NCBI GenBank assembly: GCA_022843945.1
Contig: JALHMR010000025.1
Span: 1-64,000, forward strand
Reading direction: 5' to 3'
Length of the DNA: 64,000 nucleotides
Origin: Rhodospirillaceae bacterium
GTDB lineage: Bacteria; Pseudomonadota; Alphaproteobacteria; CACIAM-22H2
A program made the translations under genes and the position numbers. Below, piece by piece: positions 4,350-34,954 of the stretch (position 1 is its first letter; each line of letters begins with the position of its first letter). Below the pieces are notes generated by a model that saw only the letters and a list, made by a program, of their open reading frames with translations, searched no databases and was not told where the DNA came from.

Positions 4350-5708
4350 ATGGGCGTTGACGCGATGCTGACCCACCAGTCACTGCGCCGTCTCGTCGAG
4401 CCGGGACGGGTGCATCGCTCCCTTTACACAGATCCGCAGATCTTCGCTTTGGAGATGGAGCGCATATTCGGCGCTGCCTGGATTTATGTCGGCCACGAGA
4501 GCCAGGTGCCGCAGGTCGGTGACTTCGTCGCGACCCGCATCGGCCTCAAGCCTATCGTGCTGGTCCGGCACGAAGACGGAAAGGTTTATGCCCTGCACAA
4601 TCAGTGCGCCCATCGCGGCGCCATGGTCGTGGCGCCGGAAGCCGGCAATGCTCACGAGTTCCGCTGCTGCTATCACGGCTGGACCTACCATACCGACGGT
4701 AGGATCAAGAGCATCCCGCTCCAGCACGGCTATCCGGCTTGCCTCGATCCAAAGGATCCGAAGCTAGCGATGGTCCAGGTGCCGAGGGTCACTTCCTACC
4801 GGGGATTCATTTTCGCCAGCTTGGCGACAGATGGTCCCGACCTGCAGGAGTTCCTTGGCTATGCCGCCACATCCCTGGACGACATGGTCGACCGAGCGCC
4901 TGACGGCGAGATCGAAGCGGCCGGCGGTGTGTTCAAGCACGCCTACAACGGCAACTGGAAACTCTACCTCGAGAACCTCTGCGATGCGGCCCATCCGCTG
5001 TTCGTGCATCAGTCCTCGATCGAGGCAGCGAAGGCGCAGGCGGATACGGTCCATTCCGACGGAAGCGGCGAGATCGCCGTGCGGCAGATGCGCCAGAACG
5101 CGGCACCATATAGCTTCTGGGAATCGCAGGTCGGGATCTGGACCTACACCAACGGTCACAGCTTCTTGGGCGACTACCACGATGATGCCAAGCTCGTGGC
5201 GGCGATGAATGATCCCGTGTTCCGGGACTACATCGCGAAGCTTGAGGCCAGGAAGGGCAAGGAACGGGCGAAGAAGATCCTGGAAGTCCGGCGCTGGAAC
5301 ACGAACGTCTATCCCAATCTGTCATTCATGAGCCAGTTCCAGCAACTTCGCGTGGTGCATCCCGTCGCTCCCAACCGCACCGTCGTCTACACCTACAACT
5401 TCAGGCTCAAGGGTGCTCCAGAAGCAATGTTCGAGCAGACGATAGCCTTTGCCAATATCGTCAACGGCACCGGGTCTCTCGTCTTGACCGACGACCTGGA
5501 GACTTACGGGCGGATCGATGCCGGCCTGTCGAGCGAGGGAGCCGAGTGGCTGCAGATCGGGCGCGGCTTCACCAGCGACACGGCCGATGCCACCGGAGGG
5601 GTCAGGGGCAAGAATTCCACCAGCGAGGTCTACATCCGCAACATGTACGACGCATGGCTCACCTACATGACCGGTGAAGGTCAGCCGGTGCGGGCCGCGG
5701 CGCAATGA
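4350..5708 (+). CDS. Rieske-type aromatic-ring hydroxylating dioxygenase, large (alpha) subunit
   Basis: A 452-residue oxygenase subunit. The Rieske [2Fe-2S] motif is intact: Cys86-x-His88, 17 residues, Cys106-x2-His109. The mononuclear iron site is DAAHPLFVH (Asp212-x2-His215-x4-His220), with a DDLE acidic segment further on for the third ligand. The protein would insert O2 into an aromatic ring using electrons from a ferredoxin/reductase pair, which is not encoded nearby. The start at 4350 has AGAGG six bases upstream; 4365 is an alternative. The longer open frame overlaps the TetR gene and is rejected. It shares ATGA with the beta-subunit gene. The substrate is unknown; similarity in layout to benzoate, anthranilate and salicylate-type dioxygenases is only general. 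Confidence 0.95.
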   Translation: MGVDAMLTHQSLRRLVEPGRVHRSLYTDPQIFALEMERIFGAAWIYVGHESQVPQVGDFVATRIGLKPIVLVRHEDGKVYALHNQCAHRGAMVVAPEAGNAHEFRCCYHGWTYHTDGRIKSIPLQHGYPACLDPKDPKLAMVQVPRVTSYRGFIFASLATDGPDLQEFLGYAATSLDDMVDRAPDGEIEAAGGVFKHAYNGNWKLYLENLCDAAHPLFVHQSSIEAAKAQADTVHSDGSGEIAVRQMRQNAAPYSFWESQVGIWTYTNGHSFLGDYHDDAKLVAAMNDPVFRDYIAKLEARKGKERAKKILEVRRWNTNVYPNLSFMSQFQQLRVVHPVAPNRTVVYTYNFRLKGAPEAMFEQTIAFANIVNGTGSLVLTDDLETYGRIDAGLSSEGAEWLQIGRGFTSDTADATGGVRGKNSTSEVYIRNMYDAWLTYMTGEGQPVRAAAQ

Positions 5709-6193
5709 TCGGCGACAGCAGCTCGCGAGAGAAGGCCGAGGCCTTCCTGCTCCGGGAGGCGCGTCTGCTCGACGAAGCGCAGTACGAGCAGTGGCTGGCG
5801 CTGTTCACGCAGGATGCCTGGTACTGGGTGCCTTCACAGGCGGGGCAGACGAGCCCACGCGACACGGTTTCGCTGATCTACGACGATCGGCGCTTGCTCG
5901 AGACCCGGGTGCGCCGACTCCTCAACCCGAGCATTCATGCTCAGAACCCACCATCCCGGTCGAGCCGCATCGTCGCAAACGTCACCCTTGAGACCGACCG
6001 GGACGACGGCATTTTGGAGACGCGGTCTAAGCTGCTCCTGACCGAGTATAGGCGCAACCGGCTGCGGACCTACGCCGGAACGGCATGGCACCGTCTCGTG
6101 AGGGACGGCAAGGCGGCGTTCCGCATCGCATCAAAGCGTGTCGACCTGATCGACTGCGACGGGGAGCTCGAGGGGCTGGTCGTACCCTTGTGA
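5705..6193 (+). CDS. Ring-hydroxylating dioxygenase, small (beta) subunit
   Basis: A 162-residue subunit of the SnoaL-like/NTF2 fold that forms the alpha3beta3 hexamer with the preceding gene. Visible family features are EARLLDEAQYEQWLALFTQDAWYWVP near the N-terminus and the R-I-V-A-N-V-xLE...RSKLLLTEYRR core. The start codon overlaps the alpha-subunit stop (ATGA), so translation is coupled. It has no cofactor and supports structure and substrate fit. Family assignment is firm; substrate specificity is not readable. Confidence 0.93.
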   Translation: MIGDSSSREKAEAFLLREARLLDEAQYEQWLALFTQDAWYWVPSQAGQTSPRDTVSLIYDDRRLLETRVRRLLNPSIHAQNPPSRSSRIVANVTLETDRDDGILETRSKLLLTEYRRNRLRTYAGTAWHRLVRDGKAAFRIASKRVDLIDCDGELEGLVVPL

Positions 6194-6231
6194 GCCGCCC
6201 GCTCAACAAACTCAAGCTGGGGAGGAAAACA

Positions 6232-7230
6232 ATGACGAAATTCAACCTGCCGGCATTTTCAAAGCTTGCACTGACAGCACTGGTTGCCCTGGTCGCAGCG
6301 TCGAGCCTGGCCACCGAGGCGCAGGCTCAAGCCCGCGAGAAGATCACTTATCTGTTTCCTGCGCCCGGACTCCTGCCGGCCTTCTCACCTTTCAATATCG
6401 CCCGGCACAAGGGCTACTACACGGCCGAAGGCATCGATGTTGATTTCCAGGTCGGGCGCGGCGGCGCCGACGTGGCCAAGCAGGTCGGCACCAACAATGT
6501 CGAGCTCGGCGGCGGAATTGGTGACACCCCGATCGTGGTGCGCGCCAACGACGTGCCAGTGAAGGCCGTAGCGATCCTCGGCGGCCGCGGGCTGATCTTT
6601 CTGGTATCGCGCAACGACCGCGGCATCAAAGGCCCGGCCGACCTCAAGGGCAAGAAGGTGACGGTGGCCGGGCTCCAGGACTCGGCCTACTTTGCGCTCC
6701 TCGGCATGCTCGCCACGGTCAACCTGAAGAAATCGGATCTGGAGATACTTCCCGCCGGACCTGCCGGCGTCACGCGGCTGGTGATCGCCGGCGAGGCGGA
6801 TGCCATGGTCGGTGTCCCTGAATGGGCCTACGCCATCGAGCAGGGCGTGCCGGCGACGACCCAGCAGACGGAGCAATACTATCCGTCCATGGCCCAGGCG
6901 ATCCTGGCTTCCGACGACACCATCGCCAAGAAGCCGCAGGCCGTCCGGGCCTTCGTGCGCGCAACGCTGCGGGCGATGAAGGAGGTGATGGACAACCCTC
7001 AGCAGGCGACGGCAGACTTCATCGCTGCCGTGCCGCAGCACAAGGGCAAGGAAGCGGAGATGGAGGAGATCCTCACCCGCTATGCCAAGTTCGTCTATCC
7101 GGGCCAGGCGACGCTCGGCGCCATCGACGAGCGGCGGCTCAAGAACGTCCAGGATTTTCTTGTGAAGGAGGGCATCGTGCAGAAGCCCACGCCTTTGGCC
7201 GACCTCTACACCAACCAGTTCGTGCGGTAG
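6232..7230 (+). CDS. NitT/TauT-type ABC transporter substrate-binding protein
   Basis: A 332-residue periplasmic binding protein of the SsuA/ThiY-like fold. It starts with a signal peptide ending near AQA (about residue 32), and the segments FNIARHKGYYTAEGIDVDFQVG and LKGKKVTVAGLQDSAYFALLGML are typical. A strong GGGGAGGA site precedes the ATG at 6232; the longer frame overlaps the beta-subunit gene and is not used. It lies 38 bp after the dioxygenase beta gene and probably in the same transcript, suggesting it captures the dioxygenase substrate or a precursor. The permease and ATPase partners are not in the window, so it either borrows another transporter or they lie elsewhere. Confidence 0.92.
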   Translation: MTKFNLPAFSKLALTALVALVAASSLATEAQAQAREKITYLFPAPGLLPAFSPFNIARHKGYYTAEGIDVDFQVGRGGADVAKQVGTNNVELGGGIGDTPIVVRANDVPVKAVAILGGRGLIFLVSRNDRGIKGPADLKGKKVTVAGLQDSAYFALLGMLATVNLKKSDLEILPAGPAGVTRLVIAGEADAMVGVPEWAYAIEQGVPATTQQTEQYYPSMAQAILASDDTIAKKPQAVRAFVRATLRAMKEVMDNPQQATADFIAAVPQHKGKEAEMEEILTRYAKFVYPGQATLGAIDERRLKNVQDFLVKEGIVQKPTPLADLYTNQFVR

Positions 7231-26066: not shown

Positions 26067-27242
26067 TTACACCCGGATGGTAGTGGCGCTGAACGGCTGC
26101 GAAGGTGCGCCGTCTATCATAAGTCGCAGGTAAATATCGTGATTTGCCAAGTTGAGCAAGTCCGTAGGCTCCAGGCGTCCCTTGAACTCCCTGCCGAGGA
26201 CTACCGCGTCTTCCGGCCCTACCCGGAACGCAATGAGGGTGCCCCGGTTGCCGAGGACGGCATGGCGGATATCGTCCTGGAGCTGATGCAGGTACTGGTG
26301 CGCCAGGACAAGTCCGACGCCATACTTACGTAGTTCTGAGGCCATACTGGCGATGAAGTGGGTGGTGAACGCCTGGAATTCGTCGATGTAGACGAAGAAT
26401 GACCGCCGGGCGGCTTCCGGCATGTCGGCGCGGCTGAAGGCCGCGAGCCCTATCGTGGTAACGAGCAAGCTCCCGAGAAGCGAGGCGCTGTCCTCGCCGA
26501 TGCGCCCCTTGGCGAGGTTGATAATCACTGCCCCGCCCTCGTCCATGACTCGTCGGAAGCTGATCGGCCGCTCGGGGTCTACCAGGACACGATAGAGGAG
26601 CGGATCGGCCAGGAACGCCCCAACCTTGTTCTGTATGGGCGCGATGCTTTCGGTTCGGTACCGCTTCGGGTAGCTCTCGTATTCCTCAAGCCAGAATGCC
26701 TTGACCTGCGGATTGTCTGAACTCGCGGCGCATTGCCGCCGATACCCATCATCGATAAGAAGCCGAAGCACGTCCGGTAGTGCTGCCGCCGGCTGCTCTA
26801 GGAGCAACAGGAGAGCATTGCGGAGCGTGTGCTCCATACGAACGCCCCAAGCATCGGACCAAATGCTCTTGAACGTCTCCAACAGTCCGGATGCCGCAAG
26901 CGAGCGGCGCTCGCGGACAACGCGCCGCAGCGGGTTATATCCAAACGGCTGCACGGGATCGGGAACGTTGAAATACTGCACCTGCTCCCTTTGGTCGGCC
27001 CGCACGCGCCCGTATAAGCGGTCTGCCAGGTCGCCGTGCGGGTCTATCAAACAGAAGCCGCGGCCTGACTGGAGATCCTGCGCGGCCATAGTCTCGATGA
27101 GCGTCGTCTTACCGGCCCCTGTCTCGCCAATGACATGCATGTGGAATAGGCGATCAGATTGTTTGATGCCGAAACGACGATAGTCGTTCCGAAAATTGGT
27201 TCGGGCAAAGTAGGAAATTGGATTGCTGCCGCATCGCTGCAT
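26067..27242 (-). CDS. VirD4/TraG/HerA-like P-loop ATPase (coupling-protein type)
   Basis: A 391-residue ATPase (from the ATG at 27242; an upstream in-frame start at 27407 gives 446 but overlaps the divergent gene). Walker A is GETGAGKT (residues 39-46), followed by LIDPHGDLADRL, and Walker B is FFVYIDEFQAF; GVGLVLAHQYLHQLQDDI and GTLIAFRVGPEDA match the sensor/arginine-finger part of the TraG-type DNA-translocating ATPases. Such proteins couple DNA to a transfer channel or move DNA in other contexts. It is a distant paralogue of the product at 41094-42824. No membrane anchor is seen. It is read outward toward attL and lies alone. Confidence 0.85.
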   Translation of the reverse strand: MQRCGSNPISYFARTNFRNDYRRFGIKQSDRLFHMHVIGETGAGKTTLIETMAAQDLQSGRGFCLIDPHGDLADRLYGRVRADQREQVQYFNVPDPVQPFGYNPLRRVVRERRSLAASGLLETFKSIWSDAWGVRMEHTLRNALLLLLEQPAAALPDVLRLLIDDGYRRQCAASSDNPQVKAFWLEEYESYPKRYRTESIAPIQNKVGAFLADPLLYRVLVDPERPISFRRVMDEGGAVIINLAKGRIGEDSASLLGSLLVTTIGLAAFSRADMPEAARRSFFVYIDEFQAFTTHFIASMASELRKYGVGLVLAHQYLHQLQDDIRHAVLGNRGTLIAFRVGPEDAVVLGREFKGRLEPTDLLNLANHDIYLRLMIDGAPSQPFSATTIRV

Positions 27243-27399
27243 AGCCCAAGGCTTGCGCGTTTGAGCATCGAACGCACGACGTGCAATTATGACGCAGCGG
27301 CAACCGAGATTCTGGCGCACGACTACCCGGCATAAATCCGAAGCGCCGTGTTGATGTAGAATGGTTGACGCCTTCCCATAGCAGCCCGGATTCAAAGTG

Positions 27400-28365
27400 A
27401 TGCACATGGCAGTCTTCCCGTCAGTCCTTCAAGCCGCCCTCGACCAATTCGATGGACGGTCCGAGCAGCAGTTATTAGAGGCCCGGGAAGCGACGAAGAT
27501 TACGGCGCCGCTCTATCACTATACCGATGCAGCAGGTCTACTCGGCATCGTTGGGAACCAACACTTCCGGTTCACCAGCTATTTGCATTTAAATGATCCG
27601 AGCGAACTGAGATACGGAATTGACGTTGCAACTGAGGTACTGGAAGAAATTGGAACCGCGGAGGGAATCGTTAAACTGTTCTGCGGGATGGTCGCTGATC
27701 TTTTTAAGCACCAAAATCTTAGCGATACCTTTGGCTTCTTTGTTGGCAGCTTTAGTCGCGCGCGAGACGACCTTGGCCAATGGCGATCGTACGGCGACAA
27801 TGGACGGGGGTTTGCGATTGGCCTATCCCCTGACCTCTTCCAGATAGAAGACAAGCCCGACCGCAAGCCACACGAGAACGTCTTTGTTGCGCCCGTCGTG
27901 TACGGCAGCGTCGGCACGCGCCAGCGCCATCACGATGCAATTCGGACAGCAGCGAACATCCTGACGACGGCCAGGGATCAACATGCCGACATTTTGCGAG
28001 ATAAAACGGTCGGCATTCCCTTTTTACGAGCGATGGCCGACTCTCTCATGGCATCCCAGCTCGTGTGGAACTGCTTAACCTCAAAACACGAGGCCTATAA
28101 CCGTGAGCAAGAAGTCCGTCTGGTCATCTTGGGTACGCTGGAGACCCTGCAACCCCACATCGACACACGGACACGCAAGGGCGAGGTTGTTCCGTTTATT
28201 CGCAGCGCGATGCCTCTTCAGAAGAAGGGCGGGATTGTCGAAGTAGTAGTTGGCCCTTCGGCGCCTCCCAATGCGGAGGATTCTGTCAGGACGTTTTTGA
28301 GATCATTCGATGTCGATGACCACATTCCAGTCCGACGCTCAACCATTCCATATCGGGCGCTCTGA
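27400..28365 (+). CDS. DUF2971-family protein
   Basis: About 321 residues, soluble. LYHYTDAAGLLGIVGNQHFRFTSYLHLNDPSELRYG, then FGFFVGSFSRARDDLGQWRSYGDNGRGFAIGL, are the hallmark blocks of DUF2971, and EAYNREQEVRLVIL is a later one. The biochemical role of this family is not established; it recurs in mobile elements and near defence genes, and its His/Tyr pattern recalls ADP-ribosyltransferase-like folds, though that is a suggestion. Starts at 27397 (GTG), 27400 and 27406 are all possible. It is divergent from the ATPase gene and ends 82 bp before the inverted-repeat cassette. Confidence 0.85.
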   Translation: MHMAVFPSVLQAALDQFDGRSEQQLLEAREATKITAPLYHYTDAAGLLGIVGNQHFRFTSYLHLNDPSELRYGIDVATEVLEEIGTAEGIVKLFCGMVADLFKHQNLSDTFGFFVGSFSRARDDLGQWRSYGDNGRGFAIGLSPDLFQIEDKPDRKPHENVFVAPVVYGSVGTRQRHHDAIRTAANILTTARDQHADILRDKTVGIPFLRAMADSLMASQLVWNCLTSKHEAYNREQEVRLVILGTLETLQPHIDTRTRKGEVVPFIRSAMPLQKKGGIVEVVVGPSAPPNAEDSVRTFLRSFDVDDHIPVRRSTIPYRAL

Positions 28366-28419: not shown

Positions 28420-28425
28420 TATAAT
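28420..28425 (+). promoter_or_regulatory. Perfect -10 box outside the invertible cassette
   Basis: TATAAT 35 bp before the recombinase start and 22 bp outside the left inverted repeat. The -35 region is weak (no close TTGACA at 17 bp). The region 28405-28445 is very AT-rich and holds further TATA-like boxes. Confidence 0.55.
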
Positions 28426-28446: not shown

Positions 28447-28471
28447 TGAACAAAATGGGCTATTTTGTTTA
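28447..28471 (+). repeat. Left inverted repeat / recombination core
   Basis: Arms AACAAAA (28449-28455) and TTTTGTT (28463-28469) around the spacer TGGGCTA. The recombinase ATG (28455-28457) spans the arm-spacer border. Exact reverse complement of 30230-30254. Confidence 0.9.
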
Positions 28472-29096
28472 TGAAGGCAAGTCGAATTCTACTTACACGC
28501 GCACGTCCGGAGCGTCCTTCCTTTATGACGTTGAGGGGAATCGAAAATATCTGACGCAGTCGGAACGGACCGCGTTTCTCGCTGCCGCTTCTCGAATGCT
28601 CCCAGAAGTCAGCACCTTCTGCCTAACTCTCGCCTACACCGGTGCTCGCATTTCGGAAGTTCTGGCGCTCACGTCACAGCGGATCGACACGTCCGCGCGC
28701 ATTGTCATTATCGAGAGCTTGAAGAAGCGGCGTCGAGGCGTCTATCGAGCGGTTCCCATTCCGCTTGCGCTAATCAAGGAGTTGGAGCGAGTGCATGGCC
28801 TACGAGCGGCAACGCAGGATTCCGATCGCGCCAACGAACGACTATGGTGCTGGAGCCGGACGACCGCATGGAGTTGGATCAAAACCTGCATGAGGCTAGC
28901 GCGCATTGCCGGGACCCCCGCGAGTCCGAAGGGGCTGCGCCATGCATTCGGGGTCGGCGCTCTGCAGTCTGGCGTACCTATAAACCTTGTCCGCAAGTGG
29001 CTCGGCCACGCTCGTCTCAGTACAACTGAAATCTACACCAACGCCGTTGGCGACGAAGAGCACGCAATCGCGGACAGGTTTTGGAGAACCTTTTGA
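28455..29096 (+). CDS. Minimal tyrosine recombinase (FimB/XerD-like catalytic domain)
   Basis: A 213-residue recombinase made almost only of the catalytic domain, the size of FimB/FimE invertases. Catalytic residues: Arg65 (YTGARISE), Lys90 (SLKKR), Arg162 (GLRHAFG), His185 (GHARL) and the nucleophile Tyr194 (TTEIYTN). The box II histidine is replaced by Lys159 (SPKGLRH). There is no separate core-binding domain beyond about 60 N-terminal residues. Its first codons, MGYFV, are written in the left inverted repeat, so the start moves with the site. No good ribosome site precedes the ATG, which may mean weak or leaderless-like translation. It probably acts on the two repeats of its own cassette. 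Confidence 0.9.
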   Translation: MGYFVYEGKSNSTYTRTSGASFLYDVEGNRKYLTQSERTAFLAAASRMLPEVSTFCLTLAYTGARISEVLALTSQRIDTSARIVIIESLKKRRRGVYRAVPIPLALIKELERVHGLRAATQDSDRANERLWCWSRTTAWSWIKTCMRLARIAGTPASPKGLRHAFGVGALQSGVPINLVRKWLGHARLSTTEIYTNAVGDEEHAIADRFWRTF

Positions 29097-29238
29097 GTTT
29101 CTATGCCGCCGTAACTGGCATCTTCTCTGAAGGTCGCCATCAATATCGGACCGCCGGCAAACTAATTCAAGAAGCTCTCGCTATAGTTGAGAATATAGGA
29201 GTAGCATTTGGCATTTGTGGGCAGCAGTCGGGGGCGAT

Positions 29239-30120
29239 ATGCGCCGAGTCATTATCACAGTCGCTGGATTGCTGGCGGCGGCAGTGGTGCTTACGGGGGT
29301 GCTAGTTGCAATCTGGATAGATGACGTTGCGAGCCGGTTCGTTGACTTCAAAGTATCGATGCTCGCCTCGCTTGCTGAGGATGTTTTGTTTTTCATGATC
29401 GTCGGTCTTGGCCTAGCGATAGTCACCCTCCGCCATCCAAAGCATGACTCGCTGGAGACGAAACTCAGATATTTCTTTCCGGACAGCCGTCCTTCTCTCC
29501 CGTTCTTGGATTTCGCTCGGCAGGAGATATGTCGGTTAGCTGGCCTTTGCGCCGAGGCCGTGCAGTCGATCAAGGTCGAGGAATTCGACTCGTCGTATAA
29601 CGCCTATCGCGTTGTGTTTCACTATCGCTACCGACTTCGAAACATGTTCTCTACGCACGACTACGAGGATGTGTACCAAGCCTTTGTTATGCCAGACAGA
29701 CCGCCGCCCAACGTGCCGGCCCCCAAGGTCTTAGGTCAGATCCTTGAGCTGACGTTCAAACCTTTTGAGGGACATGGCACAGATTATGTGATCCACCCCA
29801 TTGATCTCGTGCACGCTGATTTTGATCGAGACATTCCGCTGCGTTTGCCTCCGCACCAAGAAGGCGAAATCACTTTCAAGTTTTGGCTTTGGTGCCGCCT
29901 TAATGAGGAGCATTTCGTCAGAGCGAAAAGGTTCGTGCAGGACTTTAGCTCTACCATTGAAAACGCATCAGAAGGCGCGGTATTGGTTTCGCTGGATGGG
30001 AAGCTCGAGAACGCGGTTACTGTGCTTCCTAGGCAGACGCTCATATTGGCAAAGCTGCACAATTTGAAACCGCGCTATTTCTTTTCGGTGTGGTTGCACA
30101 AACCCAACGACACGGTATGA
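29239..30120 (+). CDS. Two-span membrane protein of unknown function (cassette cargo)
   Basis: About 293 residues from the ATG at 29239 (GGGGG upstream; another start at 29215 is possible). Two N-terminal membrane segments (about residues 1-27 and 40-63) are followed by a soluble domain of 220 residues with many aromatic and charged strands (IKVEEFDSSYNAYRVVFHYRYRLRNMFS, then EGEITFKFWLWCRLNEEHFVRAKRFV). The soluble part should be cytoplasmic by charge. No family is recognised. It is the only other gene in the inverted-repeat cassette and reads the same way as the recombinase, so any inversion would flip its expression. Confidence 0.75.
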   Translation: MRRVIITVAGLLAAAVVLTGVLVAIWIDDVASRFVDFKVSMLASLAEDVLFFMIVGLGLAIVTLRHPKHDSLETKLRYFFPDSRPSLPFLDFARQEICRLAGLCAEAVQSIKVEEFDSSYNAYRVVFHYRYRLRNMFSTHDYEDVYQAFVMPDRPPPNVPAPKVLGQILELTFKPFEGHGTDYVIHPIDLVHADFDRDIPLRLPPHQEGEITFKFWLWCRLNEEHFVRAKRFVQDFSSTIENASEGAVLVSLDGKLENAVTVLPRQTLILAKLHNLKPRYFFSVWLHKPNDTV

Positions 30121-30229
30121 TTTTCGTATATGAGCGACAGCGGCACTCAGACTCCATAAGCTCGGATAGGGTGCTTCAGTCTACGCAGCTTGCGTCTGCG
30201 AGTGTTTTGCTTTCCCGTTCCAGAGTCAC

Positions 30230-30254
30230 TAAACAAAATAGCCCATTTTGTTCA
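30230..30254 (-). repeat. Right inverted repeat / recombination core
   Basis: Exact reverse complement of 28447-28471. Read from outside on the minus strand it gives ATG-GGC-TAT-TTT-GTT-TAG, a five-codon ORF, in place of the recombinase. It ends 26 bp before the lipoprotein start. Confidence 0.9.
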
Positions 30255-30280
30255 CCTCCAAGCTGTCGAGGGGGTGAACC

Positions 30281-30793
30281 ATGCGCCACGCACTTATTGC
30301 CGTCGTCGCCTTTCCGTTCCTTCTTGCCGCCTGCGAGACCGGACCGTCCGGTTCGCAGTCTGGCAACCAGCCAACCACCACAGCCGCAGCGCCGGTGCAG
30401 ACGGCGCAATCAGGAGGCGGGTGCCTCACACGCCTCTACAACAACGCGAAGATCAATCCGCCCGCCGCCGACACACCGGAAGATCTGCGTCGCTGGTCCG
30501 GCCTCTATGGCGGCGACCGCTGGGACGGCGTGCTGTGCAACTCCCTCGCGGTTCTCCAAGTGAATAAGGACGGCTCGGCGCGGGTGCAGTATGCCTTTGG
30601 CACGGCCCCGTCCTGGGGCATCCAACAGCCAGGCGCCTACGAGTACCCGGCAAAGATCAATGGCGACACGCTCACGTTCGCGGTGCCCGCCCTTGGCGCA
30701 AACGCTACCTACAAGCTCTCGGGCGACAAGCTTTCTGGTACTTGGTCATCCCGCAACGGCACGAACCGGACAACGATCACCAGGGCGCCCTAG
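30281..30793 (+). CDS. Lipoprotein with one beta-rich repeat domain
   Basis: A 170-residue protein. The lipobox LLAAC at residues 14-18 follows a short signal, so the mature protein is lipid-anchored. After a disordered Gly/Ser/Thr/Pro linker comes a domain beginning RRWSGLYGGDRWDGVLCNSLAVLQV and ending KLSGDKLSGTWSSRNGTNRTTI. The same pattern (FxGxWxGxW, a strand, YxxG, then LSG) occurs three times in the lipoprotein at 32139-33341. No function is known. GAGGGGGTG precedes the ATG. The gene starts 26 bp after the right inverted repeat, so its promoter must lie in or beyond the cassette. Confidence 0.8.
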   Translation: MRHALIAVVAFPFLLAACETGPSGSQSGNQPTTTAAAPVQTAQSGGGCLTRLYNNAKINPPAADTPEDLRRWSGLYGGDRWDGVLCNSLAVLQVNKDGSARVQYAFGTAPSWGIQQPGAYEYPAKINGDTLTFAVPALGANATYKLSGDKLSGTWSSRNGTNRTTITRAP

Positions 30794-33394: not shown

Positions 33395-34954
33395 TCAGGC
33401 CACTTTTTTCATATCACCACGATCTCCATTCGTCGTCACGGCAGATATTTGTTCCCGCCCGGCAACCACCATCAAAATATCGAACAACTGCCTACTGGCG
33501 GTTCCAAGCGTCCCACAAGATGGTTCACCGACAAGCGATTTTCGCCAGTTTACGATCTCCTGGTACGGAGATTTCAGCGTAATTGCTGGGTTTTTTCCGT
33601 GTACCTCAAAGTTCCAAGTGACAACTTCGGCAATATCTCTGCGCTCACTTGGAATCGCGATTTTGTAGCTTGATTCCTTGATATCTCGGAGTTCCAAGTA
33701 ACGCAGCACGCCCTCGGCCGGAGCCTGGATTGCATCGGGCGTCGACAGCGTCTCAAGGATGCTCTGTCGCTCACGAAGAACGGCATGTCTACGCTCTTCG
33801 AATACATCCTTTGTGATCAGTCCGTCGAGTAAGGCATCCGTGAGCCGAGCAAGCCGCTCATCGAACGTCGCTAGTCGCATTCGTAGCCCATTGCGGTGGT
33901 TTTCAATATCCGCTTCTCGATGCTTTAGGTGCCTCGTTGCAAAGCCCCCAATGTCCCTGATCTCCGTCGTTGATAGCCGGACATAGCCCAAAAGCTCTTC
34001 GAACGCGGCATCAACGTCCTGCTCTCGCATGACAGCGCCTCGGCAGGCAGCGTTGAAGCAACGGTAATAAACGTACCTGCCCTTCTTTCGCTCGCCGACG
34101 AGGTGATACTTGCAGCCGCCACATCGTATGAACCGGCGGAACGTGAAGTCGTGCCTGACTACTTTTCCATACGTCTTGCACTTGAGTATCGTTTGAACAC
34201 GGTCAAACAAGGCCATCGGTACAATGGGCGTGTGGATGCCGGGAAACGTCTCGTTCGTCCGCTTGATGCGGACAAGGCCGACATAGAACGGATTGTGCAG
34301 CATCTTGGAAAGCCCGTTCAGGCTCAGCGTCTCTCCCGACCGCCCTCGTAGTCCGCGCCGCGTCAATTCTGCATGCAGATCCCAAAGGCTCATTCGGTTT
34401 TGGCCGTACAGCTCGAAGGCTTGACGAACGAGGGGTGCCTTGACGGGATCAGGGACTTTCGCCTGCGCCTTGCCCCGATCAAGATAGCCAGGGGGCGCAG
34501 GCAACGGATAGAACCCCTGCTTCAAACGGCCATAAAACCCCTTCCGTACTTCATCGCGCAGGTTGCGAATGAAGTCGGCGGCAACGACCGCCTGGATGTC
34601 CGCTGACAATCGGCCGCCGCGGGACCGAAGATCGAGATTGTCATGGACAAACTTCACGTCAATACCGCGGTCAATGAGATCGCCGAGGTTTGCCCAATCC
34701 CGTAAGTTGCGGGCGCTCCGATCTATCTTATGGATGATGACGCCATCGGCCTCATTTTGGGAAAGCCGGTCGAGCATCCGGCTAAACAATCGCCGGCCTT
34801 GCTTGGCGGCAGTCTCCTTCTCCTCAAACCACGCCCCGATATGCAGGCTATTGCGTACCGCAAAAGCTTCAATTGCGGCGCGTTGCTCCGGCAACGATGA
34901 ACCGTCCCCTTGCTTTACAGATGAGACACGAATGTAGGCAAAATAGCTTTTCAT
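33395..34954 (-). CDS. Large serine recombinase
   Basis: A 519-residue site-specific recombinase. Residues 1-150 are the resolvase catalytic domain (YIRVSSVKQGDGSSLPEQRAAI with the nucleophile Ser, and IIHKIDRSARNLRDW). Then come the recombinase domain (PPGYLDRGKA...NRMSLWDLHAELTRRGLRGRSG), a zinc ribbon (FIRCGGCKYHLVGERKKGRYVYYRCFNAACRG) and a coiled-coil region. It would insert or excise DNA at att sites. Its presence besides the tyrosine integrase means either a nested element or a second recombination function. No flanking att repeat was found by eye. It overlaps the preceding small gene by 4 bp. Confidence 0.92.
   Translation of the reverse strand: MKSYFAYIRVSSVKQGDGSSLPEQRAAIEAFAVRNSLHIGAWFEEKETAAKQGRRLFSRMLDRLSQNEADGVIIHKIDRSARNLRDWANLGDLIDRGIDVKFVHDNLDLRSRGGRLSADIQAVVAADFIRNLRDEVRKGFYGRLKQGFYPLPAPPGYLDRGKAQAKVPDPVKAPLVRQAFELYGQNRMSLWDLHAELTRRGLRGRSGETLSLNGLSKMLHNPFYVGLVRIKRTNETFPGIHTPIVPMALFDRVQTILKCKTYGKVVRHDFTFRRFIRCGGCKYHLVGERKKGRYVYYRCFNAACRGAVMREQDVDAAFEELLGYVRLSTTEIRDIGGFATRHLKHREADIENHRNGLRMRLATFDERLARLTDALLDGLITKDVFEERRHAVLRERQSILETLSTPDAIQAPAEGVLRYLELRDIKESSYKIAIPSERRDIAEVVTWNFEVHGKNPAITLKSPYQEIVNWRKSLVGEPSCGTLGTASRQLFDILMVVAGREQISAVTTNGDRGDMKKVA

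Follow-up and report, generated by a model that had tools for sequence, protein, structure and literature searches.

Two identical 25-bp sequences in opposite orientation enclose a small tyrosine recombinase gene and one further open reading frame in the genome of a Rhodospirillaceae bacterium, and the start codon of the recombinase lies inside one of them. This arrangement, found within the 64,000-nucleotide stretch of DNA analysed here (the window), raises the question of whether the enzyme inverts the very segment that encodes it, and of what such an inversion would do to its own expression. The answer that we consider quite probable is that the cassette is an invertible segment whose internal recombinase acts on the terminal inverted 25-bp sites and so flips its own expression and that of its cargo. 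The enclosed enzyme would act on both end sites, and recombination would turn the recombinase gene and the cargo as one unit against the outside sequence. Since the start codon lies in the left site and any leader must be outside, each flip would exchange the transcription and translation signals ahead of the recombinase, which would thereby switch its own expression along with the cargo. Judged from sequence, the family as a whole makes a good case for inversion, which is also likely in the window; the activity of the window copy, its ON and OFF expression and its ON orientation we infer.

The window cassette and its paralogue

The two sites, separated by an interval of 1758 nt (Table 1), form the longest exact inverted repeat with arms less than 5 kb apart in the window, where the chance expectation from 100 shuffles was 0.01 matches with three or fewer mismatches. 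No further AACAAAAT-N5-ATTTTGTT with exact arms was found in the 5.38-Mb assembly beyond this pair, and the predicted pair of identical, opposed 25-bp sites was borne out by a match that is exact and unique in the genome. The predicted anatomy stood only in part: a single site is indeed a near-palindrome, but the 7-bp arms and 7-bp spacer first proposed are better described as 8-bp arms (AACAAAAT/ATTTTGTT) around the 5-nt spacer GGGCT, a register that is consistent throughout the recombinase family.

Table 1. Positions in the window of the cassette and of the signals next to it
Feature	Position	Strand	Remarks
TATAAT box outside left site	28420..28425	+	also upstream of paralogue L038
Left recombination site	28447..28471	+	TGAACAAAATGGGCTATTTTGTTTA, core AACAAAAT-GGGCT-ATTTTGTT
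Tyrosine recombinase, 213 aa	28455-29096	+	Phage_integrase E 5e-20; without N-terminal SAM-like domain
Cargo ORF, 301 aa	29215..30120	+	TTG start; 293 aa from in-frame ATG 29239
Right recombination site	30230..30254	-	exact reverse complement of left site
GGAGGT before right-site ATG	30254..30259	-	conserved in L038
Ribosome-binding site AGGGGGTG and lipoprotein gene (ATG 30281)	30269..30793	+	outside cassette; conserved with paralogous locus

The recombinase ATG inside the left site, as predicted, is the sole upstream in-frame start. The protein scores 72 bits against Pfam PF00589 (cut-off 27), which places it in the tyrosine recombinase superfamily; alignments supply the catalytic set R65, K90, K159 (at the His position), R162, H185 and Y194, and its profile matches XerD/XerA structures. 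The original prediction had called the enzyme FimB-like, and this holds for its size and not for its sequence: the NCBIfam models PRK09870 and PRK09871 give 39.5 and 38.7 bits against cut-offs of 221 and 222, and membership of FimB/FimE was rejected by layout as well, the window gene lying between its sites and not outside the element. Assignment to XerC, XerD or XerA was likewise rejected, at 50-73 bits against NCBIfam equivalog cut-offs of 220-335, with matches that start past the N-terminal part of the models. The second gene between the sites encodes a protein without known relatives, matching no family in Pfam, NCBIfam, PHROGs, PADLOC, PDB sequences or plasmids. A very low-confidence structural model (pLDDT 43), too poor for a fold search, contains two putative N-terminal membrane helices.

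When the inversion was computed, the left flank was joined to ...GTTTAGTGACTCTGG and read ATG GGC TAT TTT GTT TAG, reproducing the predicted short frame MGYFV followed by a stop, while the intact 213-codon recombinase gene came to lie on the minus strand.

The same genome contains a paralogous cassette, L038, whose recombinase is 67% identical to that of the window and whose layout runs in the same order: a start codon in the left site, cargo, the right site and then a related lipoprotein gene. In the position of the cargo it carries an unrelated 409-aa coiled-coil protein. Both loci have TATAAT and AATAATAAC ahead of the left site, and beyond the right site both have CACCTCCAA-n7-AGGGGGTGAACCATG; the module is therefore larger than its repeats. 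The two cassettes stand in the same orientation, and the left site of L038 has lost its arm symmetry (ATTCAGTT), as might be expected if a once-invertible cassette were now fixed in one orientation as an inactive remnant. We regard this as unlikely for the window, where the recombinase is intact and the sites are identical over all 25 bp.

Genes for HerA/TraG-like ATPases are present at both own-genome loci (window 26067-27407; L038 1-542; PADLOC mad8-like), and both cassettes therefore seem to reside in related islands. In the L038 island, inspection by eye showed genes for type I restriction, for a helicase and for a TIR-like protein. In the window, a DUF2971 protein gene (27397-28365) with a weak PADLOC match to the candidate defence protein PDC-S31 lies a short distance upstream of the left site, and positions 33395-34954 encode, on the minus strand, a large serine recombinase of 519 aa that is a candidate island integrase.

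The signals outside the sites bear on which orientation would be expressed. The original prediction took the present orientation to be ON, reading from the TATAAT box outside the left site. The box is there, but neither a sigma-70 pair with an acceptable -35 element at this box nor a Shine-Dalgarno sequence was found in the left flank. On the other side, the minus strand of the right site carries GGAGGTGAACAAAATGGG, conserved in the paralogue, and GGAGGTGAACAAAATGGG, with its GGAGGT, would become the ribosome-binding site of the recombinase after inversion of the cassette; no promoter for the flipped gene was recognised on the minus strand of the right flank. The present orientation may thus permit transcription but poor translation of the recombinase. 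Since the left flank offers a TATAAT without a -35 element or Shine-Dalgarno sequence and the right flank offers GGAGGTGAACAAAATGGG without a recognised promoter, we accept self-switching as a likely consequence of inversion and leave its ON orientation unnamed. The lipoprotein gene begins 26 nt past the right site, in agreement with the original prediction, whose proposal that this operon also switches is a conjecture.

Inverted sites across the recombinase family

Among 385 genomes of the class, 16 had relatives of the recombinase, as did 15 of the 398 in a phylum sample, with the window genome counted in both; the other 22 genomes of the order had none. They also occur in 41 PLSDB plasmid records (Komagataeibacter, Gluconobacter, Shewanella and others). 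A phage collection and IMG/VR contained no relatives, and a search of IMG/VR with the site consensus returned three single sites without partner or recombinase. Near-identical copies in the other orientation were absent from PLSDB for the window cassette, L063 and L065.

Strand exchange between inverted sites would enforce agreement of their spacers in inverted orientation, whereas mere binding would not. At 38 loci with a palindromic site near the recombinase start, a partner was therefore sought by its arms alone, and the spacers were compared last. In 26 of the 38, a second site within 7 kb carried the exact reverse complement of the spacer, and in none was the same spacer found in direct orientation; chance agreement is 1/1024 per pair. 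In two of the 26 (L095 and L104) another weak arm match ranked equal or higher, and two further inverted-site cases were recognised by eye (L065, with a perfect 24-nt inverted repeat, and L102). The spacers vary among elements (GGGCT, GGGGT, GGCGA, GAGCA, GGTAC and TACCA, for example) and agree within each. The inverted pairs at 26 loci speak for the original prediction. About one third of the tested loci, most of them on plasmids or at the ends of contigs, lack a spacer-matched second site; the family may therefore have roles besides inversion, and its ancestral role may have been a different one.

Two principal layouts recur. The first has the recombinase between its sites (the window, L038, L039, L033, L034, L063, L065, L094, L100 and L123-L128); the second has the pair of sites, 129-144 nt apart, upstream of the gene (L041, L043, L044, L095, L096, L102-L106 and L119). 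At L129 and L130 both sites are also upstream, at distances of 580-1000 nt. A start codon within the site is shared with L038, L039, L041 and L042 and is not a feature of all relatives.

The plasmid relatives raise the alternative of a plasmid or island resolution enzyme, akin to XerCD or a resolvase, whose inverted sites would be vestigial or would serve in regulation as a double-binding site. The nearest of them, among the 41 PLSDB records, often lie beside ParA or RepA genes, and the approximately 200-aa plasmid "site-specific integrase" found beside parA/repA is a homologous recombinase (up to 55% identity) that in several cases has a similar palindromic site upstream of its gene. No spacer-matched second site was found for these plasmid loci in the stretches examined, and dimer resolution is their probable function. 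For the window, resolution seems to us very unlikely: binding needs no agreement of a spacer that is not contacted, yet the spacers agree in inverted and never in direct orientation, and the window and L038 are chromosomal-island loci with no parA or repA recognised nearby. On the Komagataeibacter plasmids L052-L055 the recombinase recurs in a module between a WGR-domain protein and either ParA or a toxin-antitoxin pair; none of these recombinase starts showed an adjacent palindromic site.

Cassette orientation and neighbouring genes

In the tree, the window and L038 belong to a clade of eight (support 99/97), in every member of which the recombinase lies between its sites. Within this clade L125 (genome G493) and L126 (G564) are sisters (support 100/100) that have in common a flank of about 950 bp, 82% identical, which contains a conserved gene, is continuous into the site and carries a promoter, TTGACA-17-TTATCT, 67-68 nt from the site and directed at the cassette. 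In G493 and G522 (L121) this flank precedes the recombinase on its 5' side, and in G564 it follows on the 3' side, so that the cassette, 84% identical between the sisters, is reversed in G564 relative to the other two. The simplest reading of these sequences would be an inversion since the common ancestor, and together with the spacer test the reversal supports the predicted reaction. The case in G564 is a single one, however, and could represent an independent insertion in the opposite orientation. At L123 (G436, 5887-6841) the exact 96-bp left outer flank is repeated, inverted, beyond the right site; this may reflect an assembly that combines both orientations, or else a genuine duplication, and we draw no proof from it.

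More generally, the repeats might be the ends of a minimal, transposon-like mobile element and the differences in orientation the outcome of separate insertions. Such an element would fit the patchy distribution of the family (16/385 genomes of the class against 0/22 others of the order), the recombinase-only units of about 670 bp in varied surroundings, and the cassettes L120 and L124, which are alike (96%) up to the right site and differ in the flank beyond. The signals outside both sites that the window shares with L038, however, imply a unit that exceeds the repeats, and L125, L121 and L126 share a flank that in the sister pair has diverged about as far as the cassette. Conservative recombination between spacer-matched inverted sites allows no excision of a circle, which also argues against mobility of this kind, and we hold a mobile element to be distinctly unlikely; inversion in place remains our preferred reading.

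The gene neighbourhoods of family members suggest a link with surface or exported functions. The neighbours of L065 are a fimbrial usher operon and an EAL gene, lipoprotein-like genes adjoin the cassettes of the window, L038, L039 and L100, and at L127 (3-1193, minus strand) a gene for a DUF4347 protein, a candidate phase-variable surface protein, begins about 70 nt past the right site.

A conserved small exported protein (about 105-140 aa, ...AE-F-S-DFLTW...) is encoded divergently from the recombinase at L044, L105, L106 and L119, where the inverted site pair lies at the intergenic region between the two genes; the one such protein tested had no Pfam match. The Rhodobiaceae cassette L033 is adjoined by a 5-hmdU DNA kinase helical-domain protein (4631-5698; PF18723, E 1e-102).

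Relation to known inversion systems

Tentatively, as a view on which we are almost evenly divided, we suggest that small tyrosine recombinases of the Pseudomonadota have repeatedly adopted inverted-site layouts that disconnect and reconnect recombinase and promoter, either by a flip of the gene (as in the window) or by a flip of an upstream segment of about 110-145 bp, and that these serve as self-limiting, heritable memory switches toggling exported proteins, adhesins, fimbriae or cargo without an assigned function. If a flip severs the recombinase from its start signals, the switch would set its own rate; flipped cells would stop producing the enzyme and hold their state, which would amount to a simple natural DNA memory. 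The many independent copies, each with its own spacer, make specificity, self-limitation and cargo control directly testable, and compact orthogonal invertases may come from the family. The original prediction knew of no description of a self-flipping unit with its start codon in the site, and we found no start codon inside a recombination site in the open literature that we searched, which does not prove its absence; nor did we find there an account of a family in which inverted sites repeatedly enclose the recombinase gene or the region upstream of it.

The broader elements of the arrangement are already known, namely a recombinase inside its invertible segment (Hin) and a tyrosine recombinase that inverts its own locus (PsrA). 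The gene for the Hin serine invertase lies within its own invertible segment (PMC5903667). The window cassette resembles Hin, Gin and Cin in having the recombinase gene inside the segment and differs from them in that its enzyme is a tyrosine and not a serine recombinase. Hin, moreover, has its own promoter inside the segment, whereas the window recombinase gene starts within the site and would have its leader outside. The tyrosine recombinase PsrA/CreX of the pneumococcal hsdS inversions likewise recombines inverted repeats that lie at its own locus (PMC7096588; PMC11868660). There, in contrast to the window, it is hsdS coding sequence that is shuffled. To our knowledge, PsrA/CreX are not arranged to separate the recombinase from its own start signals.

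With the FimB/FimE system of E. coli and other tyrosine invertons the window cassette shares a tyrosine recombinase of about 200 aa without N-terminal domain, inverted sites and, probably, promoter switching, and the second layout, with sites 129-144 nt apart upstream of the gene (for example at L105, L106 and L119), resembles a promoter inverton. The fimB and fimE genes, however, lie outside the fimS switch, whereas the window recombinase lies inside its segment and scores far under the FimB/FimE cut-offs. In having inverted sites with matching spacers around a segment, the window cassette agrees with an inverton in the broad sense, a switch that would also occur in both orientations and alter gene expression on inversion.
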